Of a DNA stretch of 37,849 bases, positions 7,663 through 32,188 are shown in pieces. The stretch spans positions 1 through 37,849 of the forward strand of contig JAUWYA010000007.1 in NCBI GenBank assembly GCA_030616085.1, read 5' to 3'. Every line of letters begins with the position of its first letter. Position 1 is the first letter of the stretch. The notes under the pieces are model-generated. The model did not search any database, had not been told where the DNA came from, and was given only the letters and a program-made list of their open reading frames with translations. The position numbers and the translations under genes are program-made. This DNA comes from Candidatus Nealsoniibacteriota bacterium. Lineage in GTDB: Bacteria; Patescibacteriota; Minisyncoccia; Minisyncoccales; GWA2-38-27.

Positions 7663-9750
7663 ATGAAGTTTAGTTTAAAATTAGACGGGAAAAACATTGA
7701 AGTTGAAACTAATAGTTTAGCTGAACAAGCAAATGGAAGCGCTTTGGTTCGCTGCGGCGATACTTTAGTTTTAGCTACTTGCGTAATGAGCAGGCAAAAT
7801 CGAGAAGACCTCGATTTTTTTCCTTTATTTGTTGAATACCAAGAAAAATATTATGCAGCAGGAAAGATTAAAGGCCCCAGATACATTAAAAGAGAAAGCA
7901 GGCCGTCTGATGAAGCAGTTTGCAATGGTAGGTTAATTGATAGATGTATTAGGCCAAGATTCCCTAAGGGCCTAAAAAGAGAAATTCAGGTGATTATAAC
8001 AGTTCTTTCTTGGGATGGTGAAAATGATCCAGATCTTCTTGGGCTAATAGCCAGTTCAATCGCCTTATCTATCTCTGATATTCCATGGAATGGTCCATTA
8101 GGAGCAGTAAGGGTCTGCAGAAAAGACAACAACTTTATTCTAAGCCCTTCTTATGAACAAAAAGAAGGCGCTGATATGGATATTGTTTTTGCAGGACTTT
8201 GTCATGACAAAGAATTCTTAATTAATATGATTGAAGGAAGTTTTCAGCAAATAGAAGAAAAAGCAATTTTAGAGGCGTATGATTTTGCAGAAAAGCGTAT
8301 TAAAAAGATTATTGACTTTCAAAACGATATTAAGAAGAAAGCTGGAAAAGAAAAAACTGTTTTAGAGCCAAGCGCGCAAGATCCTGATTTAGAAAAAGAA
8401 ATCAAAAAGTTTTTAAACGATAAGTTTGAAAAAGCGTTTTTCCAAAAAGATAAAATCAAGAGATCAGAACAGCTTGACGATTTAACAAAAGAGCTTAGCT
8501 TTTTCATTGAGGATAAATATGAAGATAATAATAAGTTAAAATATGCTTTAAGCTTTTTAGACGAAGAAGCAGATAGATTAGTTCACGAAAATGTTATAAA
8601 ATATGATAAAAGGGTTGATGCGAGAAAGTTGGATGAAGTCAGGAAGATTGCTTCAGAAGTAGGACTTATTCCAAGAACTCACGGGTCAGGATTGTTTTCC
8701 AGGGGTCAAACTAAAGCATTGTCTATTCTAACCTTAGGCGGTCCAGGCGATCAGCAGTTAATAGAAGGAATGGAAATTGTCGGGGACAAGAGATTCATGC
8801 ACCATTATAATTTCCCTCCTTATTCGTCTGGAGAAGTAAAGCCAGTAAGAGGCCCTGGAAGAAGAGAAATCGGCCACGGCGTATTAGCTGAAAAAGCGCT
8901 TTTGCCTTTGCTTCCTAATGTTGAAGAGTTCCCATATACAATAAGGATTGTATCTGAGATTGTTTCCTCAAACGGTTCAACGTCAATGGCTTCTGTATCC
9001 GGCTGTTCATTAGCTTTAATGGACGCAGGAGTTCCTGTAAAAGGATTAGCCACTGGAATTGCTATTGGTTTGATTAAAGATGAAGAAACAGGGAAATACA
9101 AATTATTAACTGATATTCAGGGCCCGGAAGATCATCATGGAGATATGGATTTTAAAGTAGCCGGCACCAGGCAGGGAATTACCGTTGTTCAAATGGATGT
9201 AAAAGTTGATGGAATAAGCAGAAAGATTATAGAAGGAGCATTAGACAGGGCCAAGAAAGCAAGATTTGAGCTTTTAGATGTAATGGAGAAAACCATATCA
9301 AAGCCCAGGGCTGAGCTTTCTCCCTATGCTCCACGTATCTTCACTATCCAAATTAATCCAGATAAAATTGGGGAACTAATAGGACCAGGAGGAAAAGTTA
9401 TTAATAAAATTATTGATGAAACAGGGGCAGAAATAGATATACAGGACTCAGGCCTTGTATTTGTTACCTCAGAAAAGAAAGAGGCAGCTGAAAAAGCAGT
9501 TGACCTGATAAAGAATATTACAAGAGAAGTTAAGGCTGGAGAGGTTTTTCAAGGAAAGGTAAAAACGATTTTAGACTTTGGGGCTTTTGTTGAAATTTTA
9601 CCAGGTCAAGACGGATTAATTCATATATCTAAATTATCTGATAAAAGAGTAGAAAAGGTTGAAGATGTGGTAAAAATAGGAGATGTGGTTTCTGTAAAGG
9701 TGATTTCTGTTGACGATCAAGGCAGAATTAATTTAACGTTATTGAAATAA
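7663..9750 (+). CDS. pnp: polyribonucleotide nucleotidyltransferase
   Basis: Two RNase PH domains, KH (INKIIDETGAEIDIQDSG), S1 domain. Confidence 0.96.
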   Translation: MKFSLKLDGKNIEVETNSLAEQANGSALVRCGDTLVLATCVMSRQNREDLDFFPLFVEYQEKYYAAGKIKGPRYIKRESRPSDEAVCNGRLIDRCIRPRFPKGLKREIQVIITVLSWDGENDPDLLGLIASSIALSISDIPWNGPLGAVRVCRKDNNFILSPSYEQKEGADMDIVFAGLCHDKEFLINMIEGSFQQIEEKAILEAYDFAEKRIKKIIDFQNDIKKKAGKEKTVLEPSAQDPDLEKEIKKFLNDKFEKAFFQKDKIKRSEQLDDLTKELSFFIEDKYEDNNKLKYALSFLDEEADRLVHENVIKYDKRVDARKLDEVRKIASEVGLIPRTHGSGLFSRGQTKALSILTLGGPGDQQLIEGMEIVGDKRFMHHYNFPPYSSGEVKPVRGPGRREIGHGVLAEKALLPLLPNVEEFPYTIRIVSEIVSSNGSTSMASVSGCSLALMDAGVPVKGLATGIAIGLIKDEETGKYKLLTDIQGPEDHHGDMDFKVAGTRQGITVVQMDVKVDGISRKIIEGALDRAKKARFELLDVMEKTISKPRAELSPYAPRIFTIQINPDKIGELIGPGGKVINKIIDETGAEIDIQDSGLVFVTSEKKEAAEKAVDLIKNITREVKAGEVFQGKVKTILDFGAFVEILPGQDGLIHISKLSDKRVEKVEDVVKIGDVVSVKVISVDDQGRINLTLLK

Positions 9751-9755
9751 GAACC

Positions 9756-11816
9756 ATGCCAGAAGAAGAATTTATTAAAAAAAACGCTATCAGGACAATG
9801 AAAAAAGATATCGCTCGTCTTCGGCAGGAAGCTTTTAAGAAGGGCGTGGCTGTTTCTGAAAAAAGCGTTATGGTAAGAGCAAAAGAAGAACAGAAGAAAA
9901 AAGAAGAAGGAGAAAGAAGAAAAATAGCAGAACAAAGGAGGAGGGAAAAAGAAGCTGAAAAATTAAAAGAACTAGAAAGACAGGGAATAAGAATGGAGGA
10001 AGAAGAAAAGGCTGCTGCTAAAGCTTTGACAGAGGAAGAAGAAAGAAAGAGGAGAGAGCAAGAAGCTAAGAAAGCTGAACAAGCTGAAAGAGATAAAGGA
10101 ACTGAACAGCTTAAGCAAGTTAAGCAAGTTGAAGAAGTTGAAAAAGCAAAAAGTAGAATAGATATTCTTTTTGAGCAAAGACAAGAGTTTAAAAGAGAAA
10201 AAGCCGAGCTTAAGAAAAAGATCCAAGAATTGGCTCAAGAGAAACAACCATTAGAATCGCGTAGAACAGCGGCTTTGGAAGAATTGCAAAGAGTGAAGAA
10301 AGGTTTTCAATCTATTGCAGTCCAAGAAAAGAAAATTGAGGAAACCCAAAGACTGATTGAAGAAAAAGAAAGAGCGGCAAGAGCACCAAAACAGAAAAGA
10401 CAGATAGAAAAACAAAGATGGATAATAGAAGAAAAGCGCAGGGAGTTAGAAAAGAAAAGATGGCCTTGGGATGAAAAGATAAAACAGTTGGATGCTAAAA
10501 TACAAAGAATTGAAGCTCAAACCAGTCAAACAGAGCTTAAAGAAAAAGAATTATTTGCAAGGCAGACAGAAATTACTGGGAAAGAGACAAAGATTCAATT
10601 AGAATTAGAAAAAATTGAATTGGAAAAAGACCTCAAGAATTTTGAAGAGTTTGGAGCATCGCTTGAATTAAAGAAAGCTGAACTTTTTAACAAGATAAAT
10701 AAAGTTCAAGTAGATTTAAAAAATGTTCTGGCAGAAGAAGGAAAGATTGAAGGAGAGAAGAGAGTGATTGAGGAAGAAGAAAGAACAACCAAGGACTTGG
10801 CTAGAAAAAAAGAATTAGAAAAGGAAAGATGGAGCGTAGAAGAAAAAAGAAGAGAAATTGAAACAAAAAGATGGGAGATAGAAAAAACAAAACAAAAATT
10901 AGAATCTCAAATAAAAAAATTAAAGAGCAGATTCCAGGTTATAACAGAAAAAAGAGACAATATAACTGCTAAGATAGCAGATATAGACAAAAAGATAGAA
11001 GGAGGATCTAAAGAGCCAGAAAAAATAGTTGAACAAAAACCTGAACAAAAACCTGAGCAAGAACCAATCTCTGCTTCTGCGCCGACTGAAAGAGAAGATA
11101 GAATTGCAGAAGCTAAAAAAAGAATTGAAGCATTGCGGAAAATAGCAAAGGAGGGAAAAAAAGAAGAAAAAGAAGAAGAAAAAGAAGAATCTGCTGTTGC
11201 TAAAGCTATGGCGGCCAAGGAGCAAGAGAGAATAAAACAAGAAATAGAGAAAAAAAGAAAAGATGAAAAAAGAATTGCAAAAGAGCAAAGAAGGAAAGAA
11301 TTATTGGAGAGAATGAAATCACCATTAAGCATTAAAAAAGAACCTATAAAAGTTTCTCCAAAGCCATCTCCAGAATTAGTTAGGGTTGTTTCTAAAAAAC
11401 CAACTATTAGGGAAAAACTTTGGGTCAGAATTTTAATTGTAAGCATTATTTTAGTTCTCTTAGCTGGTGTTGGTACTTTTTGGTATTGGTTTTTTAGAGT
11501 AAGAAGTCAAACCCCTATTCCGTCAGATGAAACATCGGAAGAAGAGATTCTTCCAGGAGAAGAAGAGGAAGAGGAGGAAGAAGAAACACCTTCCGAAGAG
11601 ATAGCCTTGGTTTTTGTTAGCGAGGCTCTTGAGGTTCCTTTAAGGGTAAGACAAGGGCCGGGAGCTGACGATTCTGTAATAGGCGCAGTTTATGCCGGAG
11701 AAAGTTATCCATTGTTGGAAGAGCTTGAGGGGTGGTATAAAATAGAGTTTGAAGATGGCAAAGAGGGCTGGATATCAGCCACATATTCGCATAAAGCAAT
11801 AGAAAGCACTCCATGA
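9756..11816 (+). CDS. long coiled-coil protein with one TM segment and C-terminal bacterial SH3 domain
   Basis: Extended charged helix, TM WVRILIVSIILVLLAGVGTFWYW, SH3 EALEVPLRVRQGPGADDSVIGAVYAGESYPLLEELEGWYKIEFEDGKEGWIS. Confidence 0.8.
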   Translation: MPEEEFIKKNAIRTMKKDIARLRQEAFKKGVAVSEKSVMVRAKEEQKKKEEGERRKIAEQRRREKEAEKLKELERQGIRMEEEEKAAAKALTEEEERKRREQEAKKAEQAERDKGTEQLKQVKQVEEVEKAKSRIDILFEQRQEFKREKAELKKKIQELAQEKQPLESRRTAALEELQRVKKGFQSIAVQEKKIEETQRLIEEKERAARAPKQKRQIEKQRWIIEEKRRELEKKRWPWDEKIKQLDAKIQRIEAQTSQTELKEKELFARQTEITGKETKIQLELEKIELEKDLKNFEEFGASLELKKAELFNKINKVQVDLKNVLAEEGKIEGEKRVIEEEERTTKDLARKKELEKERWSVEEKRREIETKRWEIEKTKQKLESQIKKLKSRFQVITEKRDNITAKIADIDKKIEGGSKEPEKIVEQKPEQKPEQEPISASAPTEREDRIAEAKKRIEALRKIAKEGKKEEKEEEKEESAVAKAMAAKEQERIKQEIEKKRKDEKRIAKEQRRKELLERMKSPLSIKKEPIKVSPKPSPELVRVVSKKPTIREKLWVRILIVSIILVLLAGVGTFWYWFFRVRSQTPIPSDETSEEEILPGEEEEEEEEETPSEEIALVFVSEALEVPLRVRQGPGADDSVIGAVYAGESYPLLEELEGWYKIEFEDGKEGWISATYSHKAIESTP

Positions 11817-14854: not shown

Positions 14855-16399
14855 ATGAAAAAACTATTACTTGTTGATAAAAAGGATAAAGTCATTGGGT
14901 TTGAGACAAAAGAAAATTGTCATCAGGGCAAAGGAATTTTGCACCGCGCTTTTTCTGTATATATCTTCAATAACAAGGGCCAGCTTTTAATTCAACAGAG
15001 AAGCAAGTTTAAGCCATTGTGGCCTCTTTATTGGTGGGCACCCACCTGCTGCAGCCATCCTCGCAAGGGTGAAGGATATATAGATGCAGGAGAAAGAAGA
15101 CTGAAAGAAGAGCTTGGCTTTACTTGCTCTCTTAAAATGATTGATAAGTTCCAATATCAGGCAAGATATAAAAATGTTGGGTCTGAGAATGAAATGTGCG
15201 CAATTTTAATTGGGACGCATAGCGGCAAAGTAAAAGCAAATTCTAAGGAAATAGCTGATTGGAAATGGATTAATGTTAATAGATTGAAGGATGATTTTAA
15301 GAAGAATCCTGATAAATATGTTCCTTGGCTGAAAACCGGCTTTAAAAGATATTTAAAAATAAAAGAGAAAGAAGAAAAGAGTCAAAAGCAATTGGATTTA
15401 TTTTTAAAACAAACAGCAGCAATAGTTAATCCAGTGATTCAAGAACTTTTAGAATCATACATTGATAAGAAATTTCATAAACTTATTAATTATCAGGCAG
15501 CTACTGGCGGCAAAAGAGCAAGACCGGCTTTAACAATTATTTGTTCTAAACTTTTAGGAGGAAAAATAAAAGATGTTTTATATCCGGCAGCTGGGTTAGA
15601 GATTCTGCATAATTCTACTTTAATTGTTGATGATATTATTGACCACGCCCGATTAAGGAGAAAAAAGCCAACTACTTTGTTTAAGTTTGGCCAATCTGTT
15701 GCTGAATGTATGGGATTGGATTATTTAACAACTGCTTTTCAAGGAGCCAATCGTTCTACATCTCCAGTCGAAATTTCAGAGATTTTTGCTGGAACATTAA
15801 AAACAATTGTAGATGGTGAAATCTTAGATATTTTATTTGAACAACGAGGAAGACAAGAAGAACCATATATTGCTAAAAATCGCTATAACAGAATTACCAA
15901 TCAAGAATATTACAAAATGATAGCGAAAAAAACAGCTGCTTTGTTTCAATGTTGTTGTGAGGTTGGGGGGATTTCAGCTGGAGCAACAAAAAAGCAATTA
16001 AAAGCATTAAAAGATTACGGGTTTAATCTTGGCATGGCTTTTCAAGTTAGAGATGATATTCTTGATATATTCGGTAATGAGAAAAAGTTTGGCAAAAAGA
16101 TTGGAAAGGATATAGAAGAAAGAAAATTAGGCAATATTGTTATTCTTTCTGCTTTAACTGAACTTTCAAAATCAGACAAAGAAAAGATTCTTAAGATAAT
16201 TAGAAAGAAAGAGATTAAAAACAAAGATATTAAAGAAGCAATAAAATTAATTAAGAAAACGCGAGCTTGTGAAAAAGCTTGTGATTTGGCAGAGGAGTTT
16301 TCAGCAAAAGCCAAAGAGCAATTAAAGCTTTTGCCTCAAAATAAATGGAATAAATCTTTAGAAAATCTTGCTGATTTTGTAGTTCAGCGAGAAAAGTAA
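14855..16399 (+). CDS. fusion: type I isopentenyl-diphosphate isomerase (Nudix) + polyprenyl diphosphate synthase
   Basis: N-term HRAFSVYIFNNKGQLLIQQRSK...WWAPTCCSHPRKGE; C-term GGKRARPALTII, DDIIDHARLRR, DDILD. Confidence 0.92.
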   Translation: MKKLLLVDKKDKVIGFETKENCHQGKGILHRAFSVYIFNNKGQLLIQQRSKFKPLWPLYWWAPTCCSHPRKGEGYIDAGERRLKEELGFTCSLKMIDKFQYQARYKNVGSENEMCAILIGTHSGKVKANSKEIADWKWINVNRLKDDFKKNPDKYVPWLKTGFKRYLKIKEKEEKSQKQLDLFLKQTAAIVNPVIQELLESYIDKKFHKLINYQAATGGKRARPALTIICSKLLGGKIKDVLYPAAGLEILHNSTLIVDDIIDHARLRRKKPTTLFKFGQSVAECMGLDYLTTAFQGANRSTSPVEISEIFAGTLKTIVDGEILDILFEQRGRQEEPYIAKNRYNRITNQEYYKMIAKKTAALFQCCCEVGGISAGATKKQLKALKDYGFNLGMAFQVRDDILDIFGNEKKFGKKIGKDIEERKLGNIVILSALTELSKSDKEKILKIIRKKEIKNKDIKEAIKLIKKTRACEKACDLAEEFSAKAKEQLKLLPQNKWNKSLENLADFVVQREK

Positions 16400-16463
16400 G
16401 AACCTGACTTCGTCAGAACCTTGATTCGCTAAAGTATAAATATATATTCTTAAATTAAACAAT

Positions 16464-16904
16464 ATGACAAAAAACAAAACAATTGAGATTAACTCAAAAG
16501 AACAATTTGATATTGTTGATTTAACTGATGAAGTTGCATCTTTTGCAAGAGAGAGCAAAATTAAAGATGGTTTAGTAAATATTCAAAGCTTGCATACAAC
16601 TGCTGTTGTTCTTGTTCAGGAAAATGAGCCGCTGCTTTTAGAAGATATTAAGAAATCTTTGGAAAGAATTGCTCCCCAGAACATAGATTATAATCATGAT
16701 GATTTTAGCAGAAGAACAGTGAATATGTGTGATGATGAATGCCGTAATGGCCATAGTCATTGCAAAGCAGTGTTTTTGCCAACATCTGTAACTTTAAATC
16801 TAATTGATGGCCAGATGCAACTTGGCACTTGGCAAAAGATTTTATTCATTGAATTAGACAGAGCCAGACCAAGAAAAATCCAAATCCAAATCCTCGGAGA
16901 GTAA
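16464..16904 (+). CDS. YjbQ/UPF0047 family protein
   Basis: LHTTAVVLVQENEPLLLEDI...GHSHCKAVFLPTSVTLNLIDGQMQLGTWQKILFIELDRARPRKIQIQ. Confidence 0.9.
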   Translation: MTKNKTIEINSKEQFDIVDLTDEVASFARESKIKDGLVNIQSLHTTAVVLVQENEPLLLEDIKKSLERIAPQNIDYNHDDFSRRTVNMCDDECRNGHSHCKAVFLPTSVTLNLIDGQMQLGTWQKILFIELDRARPRKIQIQILGE

Positions 16905-17423: not shown

Positions 17424-19160
17424 ATGGAACTTTTGGATGATGTAAAAATTGTTTGGATTTATATGAGAAAGTATAAAAAAGCAGTTATAAAAACTGTTGT
17501 TTTAGCTATATTCTTTGCATTAATTGGTGCTTTTACTCCATATATTTACGGTCGTTTAGTTGATACTGTTTCTGCTGATCCTTCTATTTCTTTTATTGTT
17601 TTTGCCTTGCTTGGTATTTGGGTATTGATGAGTTTGTTATCAGCCTTTTTTAGAAGAATTATTTCTATTAGAGGAGAATTTATTTCTATAGACATTCTTA
17701 GTGATTCAATTTGCGAGGAGGCAAGTCATATTATAAATTTGCCTTTAAGCTTTCATAGAGAAAAAAAGGCAGGAGAAATACTTTCTAAAATTACTCGGGC
17801 TGGAGAATCTTTAAGAAATATTGTTGGTGAAATATTCTTTTGGCTTTTTCCGCAATTTTTAACAGTTTTCGTTGCTTTAATTGTTCTGCTTTTTATAAAT
17901 TGGCATTTATTTTTAGGAGCTTTAATCGTTTTTCTTCTATCAATGGGAATAACAATATATAGGACCTCAGGCATTGTTAAGAATGAAAGAGAATTAAGCA
18001 AGAGGTTTGAAATTGGCGTGGGAAACTTGAATGATTCCTTTTTAAATATGCAAACTATTAAATCTTGTGGAGCAGAAGATTTTCAAAACGCAAAAATTAG
18101 CAAGTCATATAAAAAAGATATATCTTCAATTTTTAAAAACCTTATCTTTATTTGGGATAACACTATTTTATTCCAGCAGATTATTTTTTCTTTAGGGTTT
18201 GTAACCATCTTCGGTTATGCGATTTTTCTTTTAGGCGCTGGAAAGATTTCTAACGGTGTATTAGTAATGTTTTTGGGTTATTTAATCCTTATGCGCGCTC
18301 CACTAAGAATGCTTATTTGGCAATGGCTTAAAATTCAAAAAGGATTGATTTCTATTAAAAGAGCGAGGGAGCTTCTTGATTTAAAAACAGAAGATTATAA
18401 TAAAAATGGAAAAATTTTAGAACATGTTCAAGGAAAAATTGAGTTTAAGAATATTGGTTTTAGCTATGAGAGAAAACAGCCTGTTTTGGATAATATTAGC
18501 TTTACTGCCCTGCCGGGCCAAAAAGTTGCTTTAGTTGGAGGAAGTGGTGAAGGGAAAACAACAACAGTAGATTTGCTTTCTCTTTATTTTATTCCTACGA
18601 AAGGAAAGATATTAATTGACGATATTAATATCAAAGACTTTAAGCTGGAATTTTTAAGAAGTATTATTGCTTATGTTCCTCAAGAGATAATTCTATTCAA
18701 TGATACAATAAAGAACAATATATTATATGGAAAACCAAAAGCAACAGAGAAAGAAATTATACAATCAGCAAAAGCAGCTAATATTCATCATTTTATTGAA
18801 ACATTACCAAAAAAGTATAACACTTTAGTAGGCGAAAGAGGAATCAAGCTTTCTACCGGTCAAAAGCAGAGATTAGCCATTGCAAGAGCTATAATCCGTA
18901 ATCCTAAGATTTTAGTTTTAGACGAAGCAACCTCTTCTTTAGACGTTGCTTCAGAGAAGCTAATTCAAGAAGCTTTAGAAAGATTAATAGAGAATAAAAC
19001 CACTTTTATAATTGCCCATCGTTTAAGTACTGTGAGAAAAGCTGATAAGATTTTAGTTTTGGAAAAAGGAAAAATAATTGAAGCAGGAAATCATCAAGAA
19101 TTGATGAAAAAGAAAGGCGCCTATTTTAAATTTTATAATCTTCAATTTTCTCAAGAATAA
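17424..19160 (+). CDS. ABC transporter, fused permease/ATP-binding protein
   Basis: Walker A GGSGEGKTTT, signature LSTGQKQRLAIARA, Walker B ILVLDEATSSLD. Confidence 0.95.
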   Translation: MELLDDVKIVWIYMRKYKKAVIKTVVLAIFFALIGAFTPYIYGRLVDTVSADPSISFIVFALLGIWVLMSLLSAFFRRIISIRGEFISIDILSDSICEEASHIINLPLSFHREKKAGEILSKITRAGESLRNIVGEIFFWLFPQFLTVFVALIVLLFINWHLFLGALIVFLLSMGITIYRTSGIVKNERELSKRFEIGVGNLNDSFLNMQTIKSCGAEDFQNAKISKSYKKDISSIFKNLIFIWDNTILFQQIIFSLGFVTIFGYAIFLLGAGKISNGVLVMFLGYLILMRAPLRMLIWQWLKIQKGLISIKRARELLDLKTEDYNKNGKILEHVQGKIEFKNIGFSYERKQPVLDNISFTALPGQKVALVGGSGEGKTTTVDLLSLYFIPTKGKILIDDINIKDFKLEFLRSIIAYVPQEIILFNDTIKNNILYGKPKATEKEIIQSAKAANIHHFIETLPKKYNTLVGERGIKLSTGQKQRLAIARAIIRNPKILVLDEATSSLDVASEKLIQEALERLIENKTTFIIAHRLSTVRKADKILVLEKGKIIEAGNHQELMKKKGAYFKFYNLQFSQE

Positions 19161-21502: not shown

Positions 21503-22218
21503 ATGTCAATAGTTACCTTCAAATATGATATAAAAAAAGATGCTTGGAGTTGGGTGCATATTGCAAAAAAAAAACAAACAAACAAACAAACAAAAGCTAT
21601 TGGGGCCTTAATTGGCGTCCGCAAGTTGCCCATATTCCGGATGATTTATTATCTAAAATTTCGAAATTAAGCTTTTCTAAAGCCCAAACCGTTGTTGAAG
21701 AACACTTAAGGAACCATTCTAAGAGAAAATATCGAGAATTAGTAATTAACGAAGAAATAAGTTCACTTAGGAAAATTTGGGGTAGAGCTGAGAAGAAATA
21801 TTTTAACACCCTTTCAGCTGTTACTAAAAAACCAATATATAGGAATACATTTAAGTGTTTTTTAACAACAGGTTTTATGTGTCCTTATAACAAAAGAGAA
21901 AATTGGTTTATGGTATCAATATGGCATAGTTTGCCATTTTCGATAACAACAATATGTCATGAGCTATTGCATTTTCAATTCCTACATTATTATAAAGATT
22001 ATTTAAAAAAGGAAGGTCTTAACAATAGACAAATAGAAATATTAAAAGAGGTCTTAACTTTTTTATTAAATGAACCAGAATTTAAAAAGATTATTCTAGT
22101 TGAAGATAAAGGTTATCCTGACCATCAGAAATTAAGAAAAGCATTAAAGAAAGTATGGCAAAACGATAAAGACTTCGATGTATTTTTAGAAAAGACAATA
22201 AGAATTATGAAAAAGTAA
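21503..22218 (+). pseudogene. frame-split (possibly phase-variable) HExxH metalloprotease-like protein
   Basis: ATG 21503 reads MSIVTFKYDIKKDAWSWVHIAKKK; frame breaks at A10-(CAAA)n (565-595 of this line); the HELLH domain ORF 21544-22218 is in another frame. Confidence 0.7.
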
Positions 22219-22270: not shown

Positions 22271-22294
22271 AAGAAGCTAAGCTTCTTATTTTTT
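22271..22294 (+). terminator. hairpin terminator
   Basis: AAGAAGC-taa-GCTTCTTattttttg. Confidence 0.65.
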
Positions 22295-22338
22295 GTTTTA
22301 GCCATTATTTTATTTATGGTATAATTGAATTCAAAAAT

Positions 22339-22406
22339 TTGACAAGATTGTTTGATATTGTTAGAGTAAAATTAGTTGCCGGGAGCTTTTCTCGGTTTTA
22401 ACAATT
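22339..22406 (+). promoter_or_regulatory. promoter-hairpin-boxA leader module, copy A
   Basis: TTGACA-N17-TAGAGT, hairpin CCGGGA-gcttt-TCTCGG, TTTTAACAATT. Confidence 0.7.
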
Positions 22407-22437
22407 GAATAATTTCAGAAATGAAAGGAGATACACG

Positions 22438-23910
22438 ATGAGTAAGTTTTATCGAAGAGAACTGCATTTTTTGAGAGGTTTTGATGGGAATCCTATTGCT
22501 TTTGATGTCGGGACATCCAGCGTTATTTATCTAGATAAGATTACTTATGCTATCTTATCTGGTAATTCAGAAATTGAAGAAAGTTTGTTTGTTCAAGAAC
22601 ACGGCAATATATTTCCACAAAAAGCAATAAAATCAGCATTTAGGGAATTGATTAATATGGGTATTTTATCTTCAAAACCTCAAGAAAAAGAAACATTTAC
22701 ACGCGTAAGTTCCGAAGAAACTACTATCGGTGGCGTTTCTTTTAATATCAGTCATCGGTGTAACATGCAGTGCGGGTACTGCTTTGGTGGCGGAGGTTGT
22801 TATGGAGGGCCGAAAACTAACATGAAGAAGGAAATTCTTGAAGCTGGAATAGATTATCTTTTTGCTAATTGTGGTGATTTGCCCTATTGTATAATAAGCT
22901 TTTTTGGCGGGGAGCCATTTCTTAATTGGGAAATGATGCGCTGGGGTATTTCGTATGCTCGATCTATTGCCAATCGGCGTAATGTTGAGATTGCGTTTTT
23001 TATAACTACCAACGGGACACTTTTGACAGAAAAGAGGTTGGATTTTCTTAATCATCAAAGGGTCAAACTGGTTGTTAGTATAGATGGACCGAAGGGAATT
23101 CATGACCAGGAAAGAAAGTTTATTGGAGGACTTGGGAGTTATGATGTTATTGAGCGTAACATAAAAATTATCCTTCAAAAATACCCAGGGATAAATATTC
23201 AAGCTCGTCCAACTATTACTCCAAGGTTTTGTGGAGAAGTTGAAAAGATATATCATCATTTTAAATCAATAGGGATAGAGAAAATGCATGCTCGTCCTGA
23301 AAGTAGAAGTGGCAATCGATTCGGGTTTTCAGTTGATGATTATCGATTATTTTCATCAGGCATAGAAAGTTTAACAAGAGCTATGCTTGATGCTTCTAAT
23401 AATGGTGAATATTGGGGGATAATAAACGTCTTGAAATTTTTGAATATGCTTTATTTTAGTGTAGTAAAGCATGATTACTGTGGTGCTGGAGTTTCGGTAA
23501 TTTCTATATCGCCAGATGGTTCAGTTTTTCCCTGCCCAAGATTTATTGGAGAAAAGGAATTTTTACTCGGAAATATTTTGACTGGTTTGAACAGCGACAA
23601 AAGATTTATCTTTTTAAACAATTCCGTTGATGACCGCTTAGATTGTCAAAATTGTTGGGCAAGGTATATTTGTGGAGGAGGGTGTCTTTATATGCACTGG
23701 ATTGCAACCGGTGATTATCAAAGGAACGATACTATGTGGTGCGAATGGACTCGGCAGTCAATCAAAACTGCCATTAAGGCTTATGCACAGCTTCAAGGTG
23801 GTGATAATGATAAGATGAAAGAGTTTTTTGTGCGGCATACGCCCTTATTATCAGATTTTGGCGAAGGAGCTAATGAATTACTAACCTCTATTTTAAATGA
23901 AAGGAGGTGA
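22438..23910 (+). CDS. radical SAM/SPASM peptide maturase
   Basis: CNMQCGYC radical SAM motif; C-terminal SPASM cysteines CGAGVS...FPCPRF...DCQNCWARYICGGGCLYMHW...WCEW; start at ATG after aaaggagatacacg. Confidence 0.9.
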   Translation: MSKFYRRELHFLRGFDGNPIAFDVGTSSVIYLDKITYAILSGNSEIEESLFVQEHGNIFPQKAIKSAFRELINMGILSSKPQEKETFTRVSSEETTIGGVSFNISHRCNMQCGYCFGGGGCYGGPKTNMKKEILEAGIDYLFANCGDLPYCIISFFGGEPFLNWEMMRWGISYARSIANRRNVEIAFFITTNGTLLTEKRLDFLNHQRVKLVVSIDGPKGIHDQERKFIGGLGSYDVIERNIKIILQKYPGINIQARPTITPRFCGEVEKIYHHFKSIGIEKMHARPESRSGNRFGFSVDDYRLFSSGIESLTRAMLDASNNGEYWGIINVLKFLNMLYFSVVKHDYCGAGVSVISISPDGSVFPCPRFIGEKEFLLGNILTGLNSDKRFIFLNNSVDDRLDCQNCWARYICGGGCLYMHWIATGDYQRNDTMWCEWTRQSIKTAIKAYAQLQGGDNDKMKEFFVRHTPLLSDFGEGANELLTSILNERR

Positions 23911-23915
23911 TAATC

Positions 23916-24032
23916 ATGAAACGTGTTCGTATTGCCCGTGACATCAGAGGCAAAGTTCGTCGGATCAGCGACAAGAAGAAGACTCAAGTTCGGCGACATC
24001 CACTCTGTATGTGTTGCGAATGGACAGATTGA
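23916..24032 (+). CDS. 38-aa candidate RiPP precursor peptide
   Basis: MKRVRIARDIRGKVRRISDKKKTQVRRHPLCMCCEWTD*; strong SD aaaggaggtgat; follows the maturase by 5 nt; terminator downstream. Absent from the supplied ORF track (short). Confidence 0.8.
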   Translation: MKRVRIARDIRGKVRRISDKKKTQVRRHPLCMCCEWTD

Positions 24033-24040
24033 TCAACAAA

Positions 24041-24075
24041 AGGGAGTAAGCTAAAACTGTTTACTCCCTAATTTT
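24041..24075 (+). terminator. Rho-independent terminator
   Basis: AGGGAGTAA-gctaaaactg-TTTACTCCCTaattttt. Confidence 0.8.
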
Positions 24076-24101
24076 TAAACTTATTTAATAAAATATATTT
24101 T

Positions 24102-24588: not shown

Positions 24589-24619
24589 AAAAACAAGGAA
24601 TTTAGTTCCTTGTTTTTGT
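24589..24619 (+). terminator. hairpin terminator
   Basis: AAAACAAGGAAtttagTTCCTTGTTTT. Confidence 0.7.
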
Positions 24620-24646
24620 TTTAGCCATTATTTTATTTATGGTATA

Positions 24647-24730
24647 CCCTGTAGAGAAAATTTAACTGCCTTCGGTTCGGAAAAAAGAGGTTTTTTACAG
24701 AAAACCTCTTTGTTAAATTTCTTCTACGGG
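24647..24730. mobile_element. MITE-like element, copy 1
   Basis: TIR CCCTGTAGAGAAAATTTAAC / GTTAAATTTCTTCTACGGG, flanked by GTATA on both sides; empty site seen at 22319. Confidence 0.65.
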
Positions 24731-24844
24731 GTATAATTGGTTAAGGAAGAAAATAGATGTTTAGAATCAAAAAAGATGATAATTGAGAAAATTTTGAAAC
24801 AATTAACGCCGGAGAGAATAGAGAAAGAAATTAAGGCAAAAAAT

Positions 24845-24873
24845 TTGACAAGGTGGTTTGGGTTTGTTAAAGT
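24845..24873 (+). promoter_or_regulatory. leader-module promoter, copy B
   Basis: TTGACA-N17-TAAAGT followed by gtcgctgag-like leader upstream of the 24970 ORF. Confidence 0.6.
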
Positions 24874-24969
24874 AAATCAGTCGCTGAGAGTAACTTGCGC
24901 TGAGTTTGGCGAAGCATTTCTCAACTTTAAAAATTTAGTAATTTTAGATAATATTGAAAGGGCTGAAAA

Positions 24970-25158
24970 ATGAGTTATTACGATGAAGGATATGAAAAAG
25001 GACACGCAGATGCTCTTGAGGGAAAACCTAGTTTCTCAGACGGAATAATTTTTGGAGCATTAAGCGCTATTTTAAATGATGACGAGCAATATGAGTACGA
25101 GGATGGTTATAGAGATGGTCATGCAGCTGGCAAAGAAGAAACACAAAACGATGAGTAA
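24970..25158 (+). CDS. small acidic protein with GYxxGHxxA/GYRDGHAAG repeats
   Basis: MSYYDEGYEKGHADALEGK...YEYEDGYRDGHAAGKEE; own leader module and downstream terminator. Confidence 0.65.
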   Translation: MSYYDEGYEKGHADALEGKPSFSDGIIFGALSAILNDDEQYEYEDGYRDGHAAGKEETQNDE

Positions 25159-25719: not shown

Positions 25720-25817
25720 ATTTTTAATTTATCATAACATAGTTAAAACAAAAAGAGCAGTTATTGGTTTGATGACTGTTTTTTATTTTACGGGATGGAT
25801 TTATGGTATTTCAAAAC

Positions 25818-25882
25818 TTGACAAAGATGTTTGGTGTCGTTAAACTAAAGTCAGCTACGAACAAGGTTTGTTCTTTAACAAT
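25818..25882 (+). promoter_or_regulatory. promoter-hairpin-boxA leader module, copy C
   Basis: TTGACA-N17-TAAACT, hairpin GAACAA-ggt-TTGTTC, TGTTCTTTAACAAT. Confidence 0.75.
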
Positions 25883-25908
25883 AATTAAAATTCGAAAGGA
25901 AAAACGAT

Positions 25909-26865
25909 ATGAAAGCTTATATAGTAAAAAGTGGAAAGGAGATCGATCTATTTGACGAGTATTCTTACAAGAAGGAAATACTTTTCAAAAAATTCAGTAG
26001 CATCTTTGAGCTTTTGAGAGGAGCTTTGATCTACGATTTTAAAGAGTTCTATGAGGCTAAAAAGATTCTAATGCGTTACGATGATAGCGATAATTATATT
26101 AACTATGGTTATTGGCGCGATGGTGAAAAAACAAGAAGTCCTTCTGCATCGCTTGTTCAATATGTTGCATCAAAATTAGAATTAGAGGAAGACGATATTT
26201 TACTTGATGTTGGTTCCGGGCTCGGACAACCGGACATTGATATTATCAAAACCTTTCCTGTTAAAAAGATTATCGGTATCAATGTTTGCTCTAAACAAGT
26301 GAAGTATGCGAATTATAGATTTAGATTATTAAACCTAGACAATACCATAAAGCATCGGGTACTTCATTCTGATAAAATCGCTGATGAGTTAGATGCAGAA
26401 GGAATTTCTTGTATTGTGTCTATTGAAGCCATTGAAGAAATTTCCTCAATCGAGAATTTTATTAGAAATGCATTCAACATTTTGCCGCACAATGGACGTA
26501 TTAGTTTTTGTGGGGTGGTAAGAATAAAAAGCGATAACCTGAGCTTCTCAAGGATGCTGTTGGGCACTTTTTTCAGGAAAATAACCACAATTCTTTATGG
26601 GGATCATTATCGTATGCTTGATATCTATGGAGAACTTTTAGAAAAGCATGGGTTTAAAAACATCCACCACGAACGCATAGGGAGATATGTATATCCTTGT
26701 CTATATCGTTATGCCAAAAAGAGACTCTCGATTTTAAAGCAAAATAAGAATATTCCATTTATTCTTAAGGTGTTTGCTTTTTTACAGCTTCACGGGATAA
26801 ACTTCTTGTTTGCTTGGAAACAAATTGAATATGTGGTGTATTATGCTAAGAAGAAGGAAGAATAA
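25909..26865 (+). CDS. SAM-dependent methyltransferase
   Basis: NYINYGYWRDGEKT..., LLDVGSGLGQPDIDI, methyltransferase fold motifs. Confidence 0.85.
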   Translation: MKAYIVKSGKEIDLFDEYSYKKEILFKKFSSIFELLRGALIYDFKEFYEAKKILMRYDDSDNYINYGYWRDGEKTRSPSASLVQYVASKLELEEDDILLDVGSGLGQPDIDIIKTFPVKKIIGINVCSKQVKYANYRFRLLNLDNTIKHRVLHSDKIADELDAEGISCIVSIEAIEEISSIENFIRNAFNILPHNGRISFCGVVRIKSDNLSFSRMLLGTFFRKITTILYGDHYRMLDIYGELLEKHGFKNIHHERIGRYVYPCLYRYAKKRLSILKQNKNIPFILKVFAFLQLHGINFLFAWKQIEYVVYYAKKKEE

Positions 26866-26930: not shown

Positions 26931-26971
26931 TTCTTTTATTGTGATAGGCCAGGCCTATCACAATAAAAGAA
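26931..26971. repeat. 41-nt perfect palindrome (20-bp arms, 1-nt centre)
   Basis: TTCTTTTATTGTGATAGGCC-A-GGCCTATCACAATAAAAGAA. Confidence 0.95.
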
Positions 26972-27025
26972 GCTAAGTTTACTTTTTTTATAACTTAGGT
27001 TTATGCTATAATTGGTTTCAAAAAC

Positions 27026-27093
27026 TTGACAAAATACTTTGGTTCTCCTAAAATAAAGTTAGTCGCTGAGAATGTTTCTCAGTTTTAACAATT
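27026..27093 (+). promoter_or_regulatory. promoter-hairpin-boxA leader module, copy D
   Basis: TTGACA-N17-TAAAAT, hairpin CTGAGAA-tgt-TTCTCAG, TTTTAACAATT. Confidence 0.75.
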
Positions 27094-27126
27094 AAATAAT
27101 TTCAGAAATGAAAGGAATAATTTACC

Positions 27127-28509
27127 ATGGAAAACGAATATATCAGATTAAAAGATGAATGGACCATCAGGGGGGCGGCAGAAAGATGGATACTTTTTAA
27201 TTTTAAAAAAGGTCTTTGCGAAGATAGATTCTCTATTTCTGAAAATGTGTATAGAATTCTTAAGCTAGCTACTGGAGAATTTACGGTTTCTCAAATTAGC
27301 ACAAAAATAGAGCTTGATTCGGCTCCGTACATTGATTATTTGTCAGAGTTAGGAGTAATTGAGTTTTTTGTAAAGCCGGATGTCAAGTTGCGACATTTCT
27401 CAGATTCTTATACTGGGAATAATTTTCTTGGGAGAATCATGTTGCATATTACAGGAAGATGCAATTTGGAATGTAAGCATTGTTATTTAATTGGAAGAGA
27501 ATGGGGAAAGGAGTTAGAATTCGATGAAATAGTTAATCTTATTCAGCAAGCAGTTGATCTCAATGTAGCATCGTTTAGCATAACAGGCGGGGAACCTTTT
27601 GTGCGAGAAGATTTGTTTGATATTTTATATGAGCTTGATAGACAAGAAATGAAAATAGAAGGCATATTTACAAATGCAACTATTGTGTCCGAGACACTTC
27701 TTGATAAGTTTGCAAAACTACAGGAGTTTCCATTTTTTGTAAGCATTAATGGTCCATTTACAAAAGTTCATGACGGATTTGTTGGTGCAGAAGGAAGTTT
27801 CAATCAATCTTTGAGGACTATTAGACGTTTAATAGATAGAGATATTAAAGTTTTTGCCAATACAAGTTTGAGTGTTTTCATCGATGATGATAAGGATATC
27901 GAGAATTTCTACGAACTTGTAAAGGAATTAAAAATTTATCGTTGGAGAGTAAGCAGTCCGTTTCTCGAAGGTAATTGGAAGGATAATTCTTTGAAATTTG
28001 GTATTTCTATTAGGAAAGAACTTCAAATATTTCTTAAGCTCATACGGCTTTGGTTGAAGGATGGAAAGCCTTTTGATTTGGAGCTTGGTCATATTTTTAG
28101 ATATGTAGGAGGTGAATATGCTCAGATGATTTACAATGAATCTGATTACGTATGTGATTATTTCAGAGAGCGTATTATTATTCTTCCTGATGGTAACGTG
28201 GGTGCTTGTCCGCTTCTTATTACTAGTCCTCATTTGGTAGGTAATATTCGGGATTTGTCTTTAAGAAAAATTTGGGGAAGTAATAAGATGCGTTATTATA
28301 AGGACTTAAAGATTCAAGATATTATAAAGGAAGAATGTCGTTCCTGTGCGAAATTAACTAAATGTGGACTTGGTTGTAGGGCCAATTCTGTGCTTATGGG
28401 AGGACAATATGAAGATATTGACTCGGAGATTTGTGAGATATCTTTGAGTCAATTATATGATGAATTTGAAGAATATTTAAAAGAAGTTGGTTTAATAAAT
28501 GGAGGATAA
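27127..28509 (+). CDS. radical SAM/SPASM peptide maturase with N-terminal PqqD-like domain
   Basis: PqqD-like N-term (FSISENVYRILKLATGEFTVSQIS), CNLECKHC, SITGGEPF, SPASM CRSCAKLTKCGLGCRANSVL. Confidence 0.9.
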   Translation: MENEYIRLKDEWTIRGAAERWILFNFKKGLCEDRFSISENVYRILKLATGEFTVSQISTKIELDSAPYIDYLSELGVIEFFVKPDVKLRHFSDSYTGNNFLGRIMLHITGRCNLECKHCYLIGREWGKELEFDEIVNLIQQAVDLNVASFSITGGEPFVREDLFDILYELDRQEMKIEGIFTNATIVSETLLDKFAKLQEFPFFVSINGPFTKVHDGFVGAEGSFNQSLRTIRRLIDRDIKVFANTSLSVFIDDDKDIENFYELVKELKIYRWRVSSPFLEGNWKDNSLKFGISIRKELQIFLKLIRLWLKDGKPFDLELGHIFRYVGGEYAQMIYNESDYVCDYFRERIIILPDGNVGACPLLITSPHLVGNIRDLSLRKIWGSNKMRYYKDLKIQDIIKEECRSCAKLTKCGLGCRANSVLMGGQYEDIDSEICEISLSQLYDEFEEYLKEVGLINGG

Positions 28510-28855
28510 TCTGATTATGCAACAATATGAATTTTTTCCAGAGATGGTAAAAAGAATGGAACGGCTCAATTTAACTATCCCTGGCCTTACAGCATGGTTG
28601 TTAGAAAGTAAATCGAATCGGCAAATTGTAATTATGCAGTTTGATCAAGATTTTTTTTCTAAAGAATCACACAGGAATGAATATTCGCAATGGGGAGTTG
28701 TTCTAGACGGAGAAATTATATTACACACAGACGTTAAACAGGCCCTGAAAAAAGGTGATACCTTTTTCATCCCAAAAGGAATGTTGCATCAAGTTAAGAT
28801 TAAAGCGGGATATAAAGATATTACTTTTTTTGACGGCCTACGATACAAGAGATAA
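28499..28855 (+). CDS. cupin-domain protein
   Basis: WGVVLDGEIILHTDVKQALKKGDTFFIPKGMLHQVKI; overlaps the maturase 3' end. Confidence 0.85.
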   Translation: MEDNLIMQQYEFFPEMVKRMERLNLTIPGLTAWLLESKSNRQIVIMQFDQDFFSKESHRNEYSQWGVVLDGEIILHTDVKQALKKGDTFFIPKGMLHQVKIKAGYKDITFFDGLRYKR

Positions 28856-29645: not shown

Positions 29646-29708
29646 ATTCTTTAATTTATCATAACATGATTGAAATAAAAAGAGCAGTTAGGATTTAATA
29701 CTGTTAAA

Positions 29709-29732
29709 AAGTAAACTAAGTTTACTTTTTTT
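29709..29732 (+). terminator. hairpin terminator
   Basis: AAGTAAAC-taa-GTTTACTTTTTTT. Confidence 0.7.
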
Positions 29733-29768
29733 ATAATTTAGGTTTATGGTATAATTGGTTTCAAAAAC

Positions 29769-29836
29769 TTGACAAAATACTTTGGTTCTCCTAAAATAAA
29801 GTTAGTCGCTGAGAATGTTTCTCAGTTTTAACAATT
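29769..29836 (+). promoter_or_regulatory. promoter-hairpin-boxA leader module, copy E
   Basis: Near-identical to copy D: TTGACA-N17-TAAAAT, CTGAGAA-tgt-TTCTCAG, TTTTAACAATT. Confidence 0.75.
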
Positions 29837-29866
29837 AAATAATTTCAGAAATGAAAGGAAAAGAAA

Positions 29867-30799
29867 ATGAAGAATGCAATGATTATTTTGGGAGTGTTTG
29901 TGATTATAGCAAGCAGTATAATGATAGGTTGTAGGAAGGTTGATGGAGAAAAAAGTAAAGAAAACGGAAAGGGGAAAGTCATAGTTGGCAAATGGGAAGA
30001 GGTAGATGGTACTCAAACTATTAAATTTTTCAAAGAAGGAACAGTGGTTGTCATAGATAAAGGAGATCCGCCGCTGACCGGAGATTACAGATTTATTGGT
30101 GATAGCCGGATAAGGATGGACCTTAAGGGTCTTGGAGAATTGCTTGGACCTGTTATTGCCAAGATATCTATTTCCATGGATGAAATTGTCCTAACAAACC
30201 CTTCTGGGAAAATTGAAAAGTATCGGAAGCTTGAACAAATAGGCAGAGCAACAAAATCTAATATTGCAGGAAACTACACAATTGTAATGAAAATGCCTGA
30301 CGGAGAAGAGTTTAAGAACCCGGCCTTGATAACTTTGAAAGAAGATGGGACAGGATTAGTTAGTTCTTCTGGTAAATGGAACATTAGTGGTGACCAATTG
30401 GAATTTCAGTATGACCAAGATGTAACTGGGGTTGGAGGGGAAATTACAATGGATGCCTTACGCCGGAAGCCTCCACAGGTAAGTTTGAGAAAACGAAGAA
30501 AAGCAGAGGTAATCAAGAGAATAAAAACAGGGAGCATCCTTTGGAGCGAATATTATTTTACTGGAGATAGGTCAAGCATAATTAAGTCAATTAATTTGGA
30601 AATAAAAGAACACGGTACTTTCCAAGAGTTATTTGTCCGAAGGGATGTATGGAGAATTAAAGATGGCGGCGTAGAGATTACTGTTGCAGATGAAAATCAG
30701 AAAGAAAGAAAAATTAAAGGAGAAATTGAGGAAAACACTATAATATTTCAAGACGGTGAAACTGAATTTAGATATATTAAAGTGGAAAACGCGCCTTAG
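29867..30799 (+). CDS. lipoprotein with two beta-rich (lipocalin-like) repeats
   Basis: Signal peptide and lipobox SSIMIGC; KWEEVDGTQTIKFFKEGTVVV / GNYTIVMKMPDGEEF...GKWNISGDQLEF. Confidence 0.7.
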   Translation: MKNAMIILGVFVIIASSIMIGCRKVDGEKSKENGKGKVIVGKWEEVDGTQTIKFFKEGTVVVIDKGDPPLTGDYRFIGDSRIRMDLKGLGELLGPVIAKISISMDEIVLTNPSGKIEKYRKLEQIGRATKSNIAGNYTIVMKMPDGEEFKNPALITLKEDGTGLVSSSGKWNISGDQLEFQYDQDVTGVGGEITMDALRRKPPQVSLRKRRKAEVIKRIKTGSILWSEYYFTGDRSSIIKSINLEIKEHGTFQELFVRRDVWRIKDGGVEITVADENQKERKIKGEIEENTIIFQDGETEFRYIKVENAP

Positions 30800-31069
30800 C
30801 AGAGAGTTGTAGGTAAATATGTTTTTGAAGGAGGGATTGTAGGAAAAAAAGTAGAGAGAAATCCTAGAAAGTCTACTATATCTTCATCACCGGTATTTTC
30901 GTCATCGGATACAGTCGACCCTTCTTCTACTTTGCGTAGTAGGCGTGCTCAATAATAGATGATAGCGAGAAAACTAAAGGGCTGGATTTTTCAGCCCTTC
31001 TTTTTATTAATTGCAGTTATTGGTTTGATAGCTGTTTTTTGTTTTAGCCATTATTTTATTTATGGTATA

Positions 31070-31149
31070 CCCTGTAGAGAAAATTTAACTGCCTTCGGAA
31101 AGAAGAGGTTTTTTCACAGAAAACCTCTTTGTTAAATTTCTTCTACGGG
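31070..31149. mobile_element. MITE-like element, copy 2
   Basis: Same TIRs and GTATA flanks as 24647-24730. Confidence 0.65.
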
Positions 31150-31195
31150 GTATAATTAATTAAGGAAAAAACATAAATGTTTAGAATCAAAAAAG

Positions 31196-32188
31196 ATGAT
31201 AATTGAGAAAATTTTAAAACAATTAACGCCGGAGAGAATAGAAAAAGAAATTAAGGCAATTCAAGAGGTTAAACTTCCTCCAGAGCTTCAGAAGTGGGTG
31301 AAGGAGTATGAAAAAGTGGGAGATAGAGATGAGTTTATTTGGAAGTGGAGCTATATTGGTTTAAAAAAGCTCACATTGCCTAGCGTATCAAAAAAATATA
31401 GGAATTTGGTTTTAGAGGCTAAATTTATTAGTATTGTTCTAAATGTTCTACTAGATGATCTTGCCGACAAAAGGAAAAATAAAAATTTATTAGAGAAAGC
31501 TATTAATATATGTATCTTGCGGAATAGTGTCCAAAAAGATCTTAAATTAACACTTTTTGATAAAGAAGATCAAAGTTGTCTTGATTTAATTAGAGAAATA
31601 TGGCTTTTTCTGAATCGTACAATTAAGAGATTGCCCAGATATAAAGAATTCAGAGATATTTTTTTATACGATTATCAACAATTTCTTAATTCTGTTAGGT
31701 ACGGATATTTAATTAATAAAAATTTAAATTTAATCAATATTATAGAAGATCAAATTTACTCTTCTCATAATATGCAGGGGATGATAATGGGAACAATGGA
31801 TTTAATGGCTTCTCTTAAGTTTAATATAAATGAACTCGGACTTTTTAGAGAAATAATATGGCGGGCACAAAGAATGGGAAGAATAGGGAATTCTTTAACT
31901 ACTTGGAAAAGAGAGATTCTTGAAAACGATTTTTCAAGCGAAATTTTTGGCTATGCTTTAATAAATGGCATTCTTAGTCAAAAAGATCTCAGAAAAGAAA
32001 ATAGCGAGGAGATTGTCAAAAAAATAGAAAAATCAGATATCAAGAATTATTTTCTGAACGAATGGGAAAAGCGATATAAAGAAATCAGAGAGTTTAATAA
32101 AGAAATGAAATCTTTTAATTTTAAAGAAGTTCTTGAAGGATTAGAGAGTCTTATTGTAATGCATTTCTGTAGTGTAGGTTTTAAGTAA
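31196..32188 (+). CDS. class I terpene-synthase-like protein
   Basis: All-helical 330-aa protein with 87-DDLAD-91 and 232-NSLTTWKRE-240 (NSE-triad-like). Confidence 0.7.
   Translation: MIIEKILKQLTPERIEKEIKAIQEVKLPPELQKWVKEYEKVGDRDEFIWKWSYIGLKKLTLPSVSKKYRNLVLEAKFISIVLNVLLDDLADKRKNKNLLEKAINICILRNSVQKDLKLTLFDKEDQSCLDLIREIWLFLNRTIKRLPRYKEFRDIFLYDYQQFLNSVRYGYLINKNLNLINIIEDQIYSSHNMQGMIMGTMDLMASLKFNINELGLFREIIWRAQRMGRIGNSLTTWKREILENDFSSEIFGYALINGILSQKDLRKENSEEIVKKIEKSDIKNYFLNEWEKRYKEIREFNKEMKSFNFKEVLEGLESLIVMHFCSVGFK

Follow-up and report, generated by a model that had tools for sequence, protein, structure and literature searches.

The window, the whole stretch of 37,849 nucleotides analysed here, is one contig, C28, of the genome G000 (740 kb, 98% complete). 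At 22438-24032 it carries a two-gene unit: a gene encoding a radical-SAM/SPASM enzyme, then a 38-codon open reading frame (ORF), then a strong terminator (Table 1). The stop codon of the enzyme gene lies 5 nt before the ATG of the ORF, whose Shine-Dalgarno sequence is perfect. As the enzyme gene ends within this sequence, AAGGAGGTGAT, translation of the two genes is probably coupled. The terminator hairpin (24041-24069) has 11 bp and a T tail (-17.3 kcal/mol, z -5.0). Every element of the layout originally predicted (maturase, 5-nt spacer, ORF with Shine-Dalgarno sequence, terminator) was found in its place. Window genes end in TAA (20 genes), TGA (5) or TAG (4); all three act as normal stops, giving translation table 11, and an alternative code reading TGA as glycine is ruled out by the five genes that TGA ends.

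Table 1. Features of the two-gene unit and of the surrounding island
Feature	Position	Strand	Evidence or remark
Sigma70-like promoter of the two-gene unit, TTGACA-N17-TAGAGT	22339-22367	+	One of five repeated-promoter copies in the window
5' leader RNA, hairpin stem 22378-22384/22390-22396, conserved TTTTAACAATTnAATAATTTCAGAAATGAAAGGA	22368-22431	+	Repeats, covariation, covariance model
Radical-SAM/SPASM peptide maturase, 490 aa; ATG 22438, TGA 23908-23910	22438-23910	+	Family models, CteB alignment, tree
Putative N-terminal RRE (PqqD-like leader-binding) region, ~residues 14-95	22477-22722	+	phmmer alignment to CteB 5wgg
CxxxCxxC for the SAM-binding 4Fe-4S cluster (C108, C112, C115)	22759-22782	+	Sequence, Pfam
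SPASM region, seven Cys (C348, C366, C403, C406, C412, C416, C435)	23479-23742	+	All align with CteB
Shine-Dalgarno AAGGAGGTGAT within the last maturase codons	23901-23911	+	Sequence
Candidate precursor peptide, 38 aa, MKRVRIARDIRGKVRRISDKKKTQVRRHPLCMCCEWTD; ATG 23916, stop 24030-24032	23916-24032	+	Similar ORF beside the G002 maturase
Candidate core CMCCEWTD (C31, C33, C34; C34-x3-D38)	24006-24029	+	Sequence; CxC position kept in G002
Intrinsic terminator closing the unit	24041-24076	+	Hairpin and T tail
Repeated promoter and leader, 153-nt copies	22278-22430, 26965-27117, 29708-29860		Repeats
Repeated promoter and leader, shorter copies	24839-24890, 25812-25904		Repeats
62-aa acidic ORF, YExGYxDGHAxGK repeats	24970-25158		Behind a degenerate leader copy
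Methyltransferase	25909-26865		Behind leader
Second radical-SAM/SPASM enzyme, 460 aa; its gene overlaps that of a cupin	27127-28855		Behind leader
Lipocalin-like protein	29867-30799		Behind leader

The radical-SAM/SPASM enzyme

The cysteine set originally noted is present in full: C108, C112 and C115 form the CxxxCxxC motif and seven further cysteines lie towards the C-terminus. Pfam matches PF04055 (46.9 bits), and the SPASM model PF13186 (19.3 bits) falls just below its cut-off of 21.5. With the CxxxCxxC motif and SPASM cysteines that mark SPASM radical-SAM RiPP maturases at the superfamily level, and all ten cluster cysteines in place, the enzyme belongs, as judged from its sequence, to that superfamily.

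Among NCBIfam models, the highest scores come without exception from RiPP maturases or from thioether maturases of peptides or proteins: QhpD (272 bits), Nif11 (257), PapB (243) and SCIFF (241). The enzyme reaches the curated NCBIfam cut-off of no named maturase family, scoring 272 against 453 bits for QhpD (TIGR03906), 241 against 425 for SCIFF (TIGR03974), 243 against 340 for PapB (NF047865) and 113.5 against 370 for HxsB (TIGR03978), this last result giving no basis for a His-Xaa-Ser assignment. Models of cyclophane-forming families score far lower (GrrM 70, YhhB 95, DynA 97 bits). In trees the enzyme groups with QhpD, SCIFF and Nif11 maturases, apart from HxsB and FibroRumin-like enzymes, with its exact position within that grouping left unsettled; the HxsB-like CPR enzymes form a separate clade (support 100/100).

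The closest solved structure found by phmmer is that of CteB (PDB 5wgg), which aligns with residues 17-448 (1.3e-55) with every SPASM cysteine kept. The alignment begins early enough to cover the RRE region of CteB, whose N-terminal RRE binds the leader of its substrate (PMC8326336). QhpD and SCIFF maturases form thioethers from cysteine to beta- or gamma-carbons (PMC8326336).

The 38-residue peptide

The peptide has a net charge of +9 and three cysteines, and a peptide search of its own genome found a single copy. Neither Pfam nor the NCBIfam small-protein models match it, and its similarity to SCIFF and QhpC leaders is not significant. Among 100,000 shuffles of the 191-nt gap that holds it, 206 contained an ORF of 36 aa or more behind a strong Shine-Dalgarno sequence, and 1 contained such an ORF that was also basic with CxC in its last 12 residues, these last two features having been chosen after the peptide was seen. 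Codon usage lends no independent support: the coding score is -1.1 in frame and -1.3 in the next frame, and CGN makes up 88% of the arginine codons but about 27% of those in window genes, which is atypical for the genome. An attenuation leader peptide is ruled out, because the ORF sits downstream of the enzyme gene and ends in its own terminator.

Such a peptide might also be made and left unmodified, as an arginine-rich miniprotein that binds nucleic acid or metal or as a small protein that regulates the enzyme encoded next to it. Its charge and a CxCC end reminiscent of metal ligands would suit these roles, and its MCCEWT resembles the MWCEWT loop at the last SPASM cysteine of the enzyme. 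A short basic leader and a cysteine core beside an RRE-bearing radical-SAM/SPASM enzyme, however, is the usual layout of a RiPP locus; this and the lack of a small-protein family match make an unmodified product very improbable. The sequences behind the resemblance (23733-23750 in the enzyme gene, 24008-24025 in the core) are identical at 17 of 18 nucleotides, which 1 of 2000 shuffles reached. No such match between enzyme and core was seen in G002, the second genome described below, and the identity may reflect mimicry, gene conversion or chance.

Recurrence in a second genome

The maturase profile was searched against all 247 available genomes of the order; the class and the phylum were covered by evenly drawn samples (383 and 379 genomes). 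Most CPR matches in the order are HxsB enzymes of His-Xaa-Ser systems and were excluded from the recurrence count. In the whole order there is just one close CPR relative, encoded by G002, a genome of another genus in the same family, at 31% identity in the search alignment and 28% globally; the pair shares no more similarity than either member does with QhpD or SCIFF maturases, and support for joining the two in the tree (77/89) is not decisive. One scan of genome contigs gave distant sulfatase-maturase-like matches only. Viral contigs, searched by the peptide DNA pattern and by the maturase, yielded nothing useful, and plasmids and phages carry relatives of QhpD, Nif11, SCIFF-like and HxsB enzymes, all below 31%.

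Between a glycosyltransferase gene and the G002 maturase gene lies a short basic ORF with a GTG start (MVRLLNRRKSTRKYRAAFCRCGRVLW); the Shine-Dalgarno sequence AAAGGAGG stands in front of it and a very stable hairpin behind it. A strong Shine-Dalgarno sequence, basic character and CxC in the last 12 residues, a combination fixed beforehand from the window peptide, occurred together in 4 of 100,000 shuffles of the G002 gap. The two peptides align ungapped over 20 residues, with 7 of the 20 identical, further conservative pairs and a common [LF]CxC (p ~0.0003 in local-alignment shuffles with composition held). Both end five residues past CxC with a tryptophan within the last three, and both write arginine mostly as CGN (86% in G002, 88% in the window). 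The recurrence on which the original prediction could be checked, a similar basic ORF beside a homologous maturase, is therefore found, in a small sample of two genomes; the exact CxCCEW motif does not recur, whereas [LF]CxC and the near-terminal tryptophan do. The ORF lies on opposite sides of the maturase gene in the two genomes, downstream of it in the window. In its 28-aa form the G002 peptide resembles a SCIFF leader (MAVVRLLNRRKSTRKYRAAFC/MKHIKTLNTRKLQNTVKKGGC; p 0.02, or 0.007 when N-anchored).

A profile of the two peptides gave no credible third copy over 246 genomes of the order; that the G002 copy scored high follows from how the profile was built. Since within the order the maturase is confined to the same two genomes, peptide and maturase co-occur: an adjacent short basic CxC ORF accompanies the maturase in 2 of 2 genomes, and neither partner is present in the other genomes of the order.

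Recurrence beside the G002 maturase and full-length similarity to CteB, the leader-binding region of CteB included, support the core of the original prediction, a radical-SAM RiPP locus with the small ORF as its precursor; three points first brought forward with it, on the recurring motif, the thioether bond and the novelty of RiPPs in CPR, proved weaker than they were made out to be. In our view the 38-residue peptide is likely to be a RiPP precursor matured by the 490-residue enzyme, and with similar confidence we read 22438-24032 as a two-gene RiPP system on a single transcript. The enzyme might instead modify another protein or peptide, as QhpD modifies a whole enzyme subunit, leaving the ORF a chance or decaying sequence. 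The atypical codons, the coding score that gains nothing in frame and the mere two occurrences would fit this, but the perfect Shine-Dalgarno sequence, the translational coupling, the dedicated terminator and the similar ORF in G002 would not. Neither a QhpC substrate nor QHNDH subunits occur among the window proteins listed and searched, and we regard a different substrate as improbable.

Proposed maturation

By analogy with CteB, the N-terminal RRE-like domain would hold the strongly basic leader of the precursor (approximately residues 1-29), presenting the short cysteine core LCMCCEWTD. The radical-SAM cluster would generate a 5'-deoxyadenosyl radical that abstracts hydrogen from a residue of the core, the acceptor, and a core cysteine bound at the auxiliary SPASM 4Fe-4S cluster would then close onto the acceptor carbon to form a thioether. 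The likeliest bond would join C34 to D38, or C33 or C34 to T37, the latter being CteA-like. A protease encoded outside the unit would finally release the core, which might then be exported.

A ranthipeptide-like cysteine thioether is the most likely bond, with about an even chance of being correct. The case for it is weaker than originally claimed, since the acceptor residues have no counterparts in the G002 core, FCRCGRVLW, which lacks Asp, Asn, Thr and Glu. In that core CxC is followed by GRVLW, which leaves room for a different kind of bond. A RiPP pair that forms an alpha-carbon thioether, as in sactipeptides, or a tryptophan-centred C-C crosslink, as in cyclophanes and as W36-T37-D38 would allow, is a possible though less probable explanation. 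Sacti-type bonds tolerate many acceptor residues, and the cysteines and near-terminal tryptophan are the features kept in both cores. Against this stand the best scores of the enzyme, with the QhpD, PapB and SCIFF models and CteB, and for a cyclophane-like bond also the far lower scores of the GrrM, YhhB and DynA models given above.

Neither a leader protease nor a dedicated exporter is fused to the unit or convincingly adjacent to it. Just upstream on the same strand, 21544-22218 encodes a 224-aa protein with a HELLH zinc-protease motif (Peptidase_M78 at E 0.1 only), a possible candidate for the leader protease. An MsbA-like ABC exporter is encoded at 17424-19160, a candidate only, which the evidence here does not link to the unit.

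A shared promoter-leader element

The two-gene unit sits in a 9-kb island whose genes have a promoter-leader hairpin in common. This family comprises TTGACA-N17-TAAAnT, a covarying hairpin and a conserved TTTTAACAATTnAATAATTTCAGAAA. In the aligned hairpin 97% of cells are paired, against 36-58% when the alignment is slid, and five cells carry double changes, modest evidence given that it rests on five sequences. With a covariance model, five copies are found in the genome, all at 22-30 kb of the window, of which the fifth (24873-24960) is weak (E 0.06); the sister species G007 has one strong copy (L096, about 3507-3566), which precedes a gene for a 103-aa small membrane protein next to frr. 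With the promoter-leader common to this sister species, contamination is an unlikely source of the maturase gene. The protein-coding parts of the island have no DNA match in G007.

The second radical-SAM/SPASM enzyme reaches no family cut-off, and no peptide ORF was seen beside its gene. It is possible that the leader-bearing units serve a common pathway. More speculatively, and in our view rather unlikely, the 38-residue peptide might be the substrate of a genus-specific, multi-enzyme RiPP island, in which one promoter-leader hairpin jointly controls the two-gene unit, the methyltransferase, the second radical-SAM/SPASM enzyme with its cupin and the lipocalin-like protein for the production of a new class of peptide, used against or with a host by an ultra-small, probably host-dependent bacterium.

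The island also bears signs of rearrangement. The stretch 24613-24839 is a near-identical duplicate of 31036-31259, comprising a promoter-like element and the start of the gene at 31196-32188; the duplicate gene start, at 24747, is truncated and fused to the leader repeat, a rearrangement by recombination. The complete gene encodes a 330-aa protein with no Pfam match and with DDLAD and NSLTTWKRE stretches, which we take to be reminiscent of class I terpene synthase motifs. Elsewhere in the window, a stretch of about 70 nt (16390-16467) has many copies in G007 and G002 at 81-91% identity and is, by this distribution, an interspersed repeat of this CPR family.

Radical-SAM peptide systems in CPR bacteria

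The original point that RiPPs are rarely described in CPR genomes carries less weight than first put: graspetides have been predicted there (PMC8939145), and the same order holds His-Xaa-Ser and other radical-SAM peptide loci, so a claim to the first RiPP in CPR is not supported. His-Xaa-Ser-type clusters (HxsB/HxsC/HxsD-like proteins and SHSSH-repeat proteins; L048-L053, L057, L086, L087, L089, L091) occur in many genomes of the order, alongside FibroRumin-like enzymes with conserved cysteine-rich peptides, and together these suggest that radical-SAM peptide systems are widespread in it. A conserved 53-aa cysteine-rich peptide ending in EGIxCVHCPCYTSCTRC is encoded upstream of FibroRumin-like maturases in G434 (L058, 7139-7297, minus strand) and G460 (L060, 5075-5235, plus strand), and a 58-aa peptide with CGGICGGTCYC upstream of another in G442 (L054, 7526-7702, minus strand); no NCBIfam model matches either. 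G460 has a further cysteine-rich 42-aa ORF with a strong Shine-Dalgarno sequence (MEIENEATMAKFSVLKEVHPKVEPMQLHSMKCQGQCTCRCCK; L060, about 9711-9840, plus strand). In G532 a PapB-like radical-SAM/SPASM enzyme (L055, 5047-6501, minus strand) has a C-terminal tail of about 100 residues dense in CxxC and CxxxC cysteines, and resembles a fusion of a maturase with the substrate it would act on.

In the literature searched, with subscription journals and preprints outside it, we found no dedicated report of radical-SAM RiPPs in CPR/Patescibacteria, and ATP-grasp graspetides were the only specific precursor systems reported for this branch. The present locus, whose enzyme is of a known class, extends radical-SAM RiPPs to this branch and brings a precursor family that is new; its chemistry is predicted from sequence. 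CPR bacteria have very small genomes and their means of interacting with hosts are mostly unknown. That a minimal two-gene radical-SAM peptide system is kept in a 740-kb genome suggests that the modified peptide is worth its cost.

Comparison with known systems

The predicted CPR graspetides are likewise RiPP loci in CPR genomes, but depend on ATP-grasp ligases and contain lactone or lactam bonds. The FibroRumin-like maturases of G434, G460 and G442 also have a small cysteine-containing ORF with a strong Shine-Dalgarno sequence beside a radical-SAM/SPASM gene. These enzymes nevertheless form a clade of their own in the trees (99/97 and 100/100), and their peptides have no significant similarity to that of the window.

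PapB, the maturase of the ranthipeptide freyrasin, links Cys-X3-Asp (PMC9413430), the spacing seen in C34-E-W-T-D38; PapA has six such motifs, whereas the window peptide has one and the G002 peptide none. QhpD, of the quinohemoprotein amine dehydrogenase system, gives the top NCBIfam score and has its substrate gene directly downstream, as here, but that substrate, QhpC, is a 108-aa enzyme subunit and the candidate here has 38 residues. The SCIFF pair CteB-CteA of C. thermocellum differs in its precursor: SCIFF peptides have six cysteines in about 45 residues, while the 38-residue window peptide has three, at its extreme C-terminus. In both systems, however, a small cysteine-containing peptide adjoins the maturase, and the two enzymes align over their full length, RRE region and all SPASM cysteines included.
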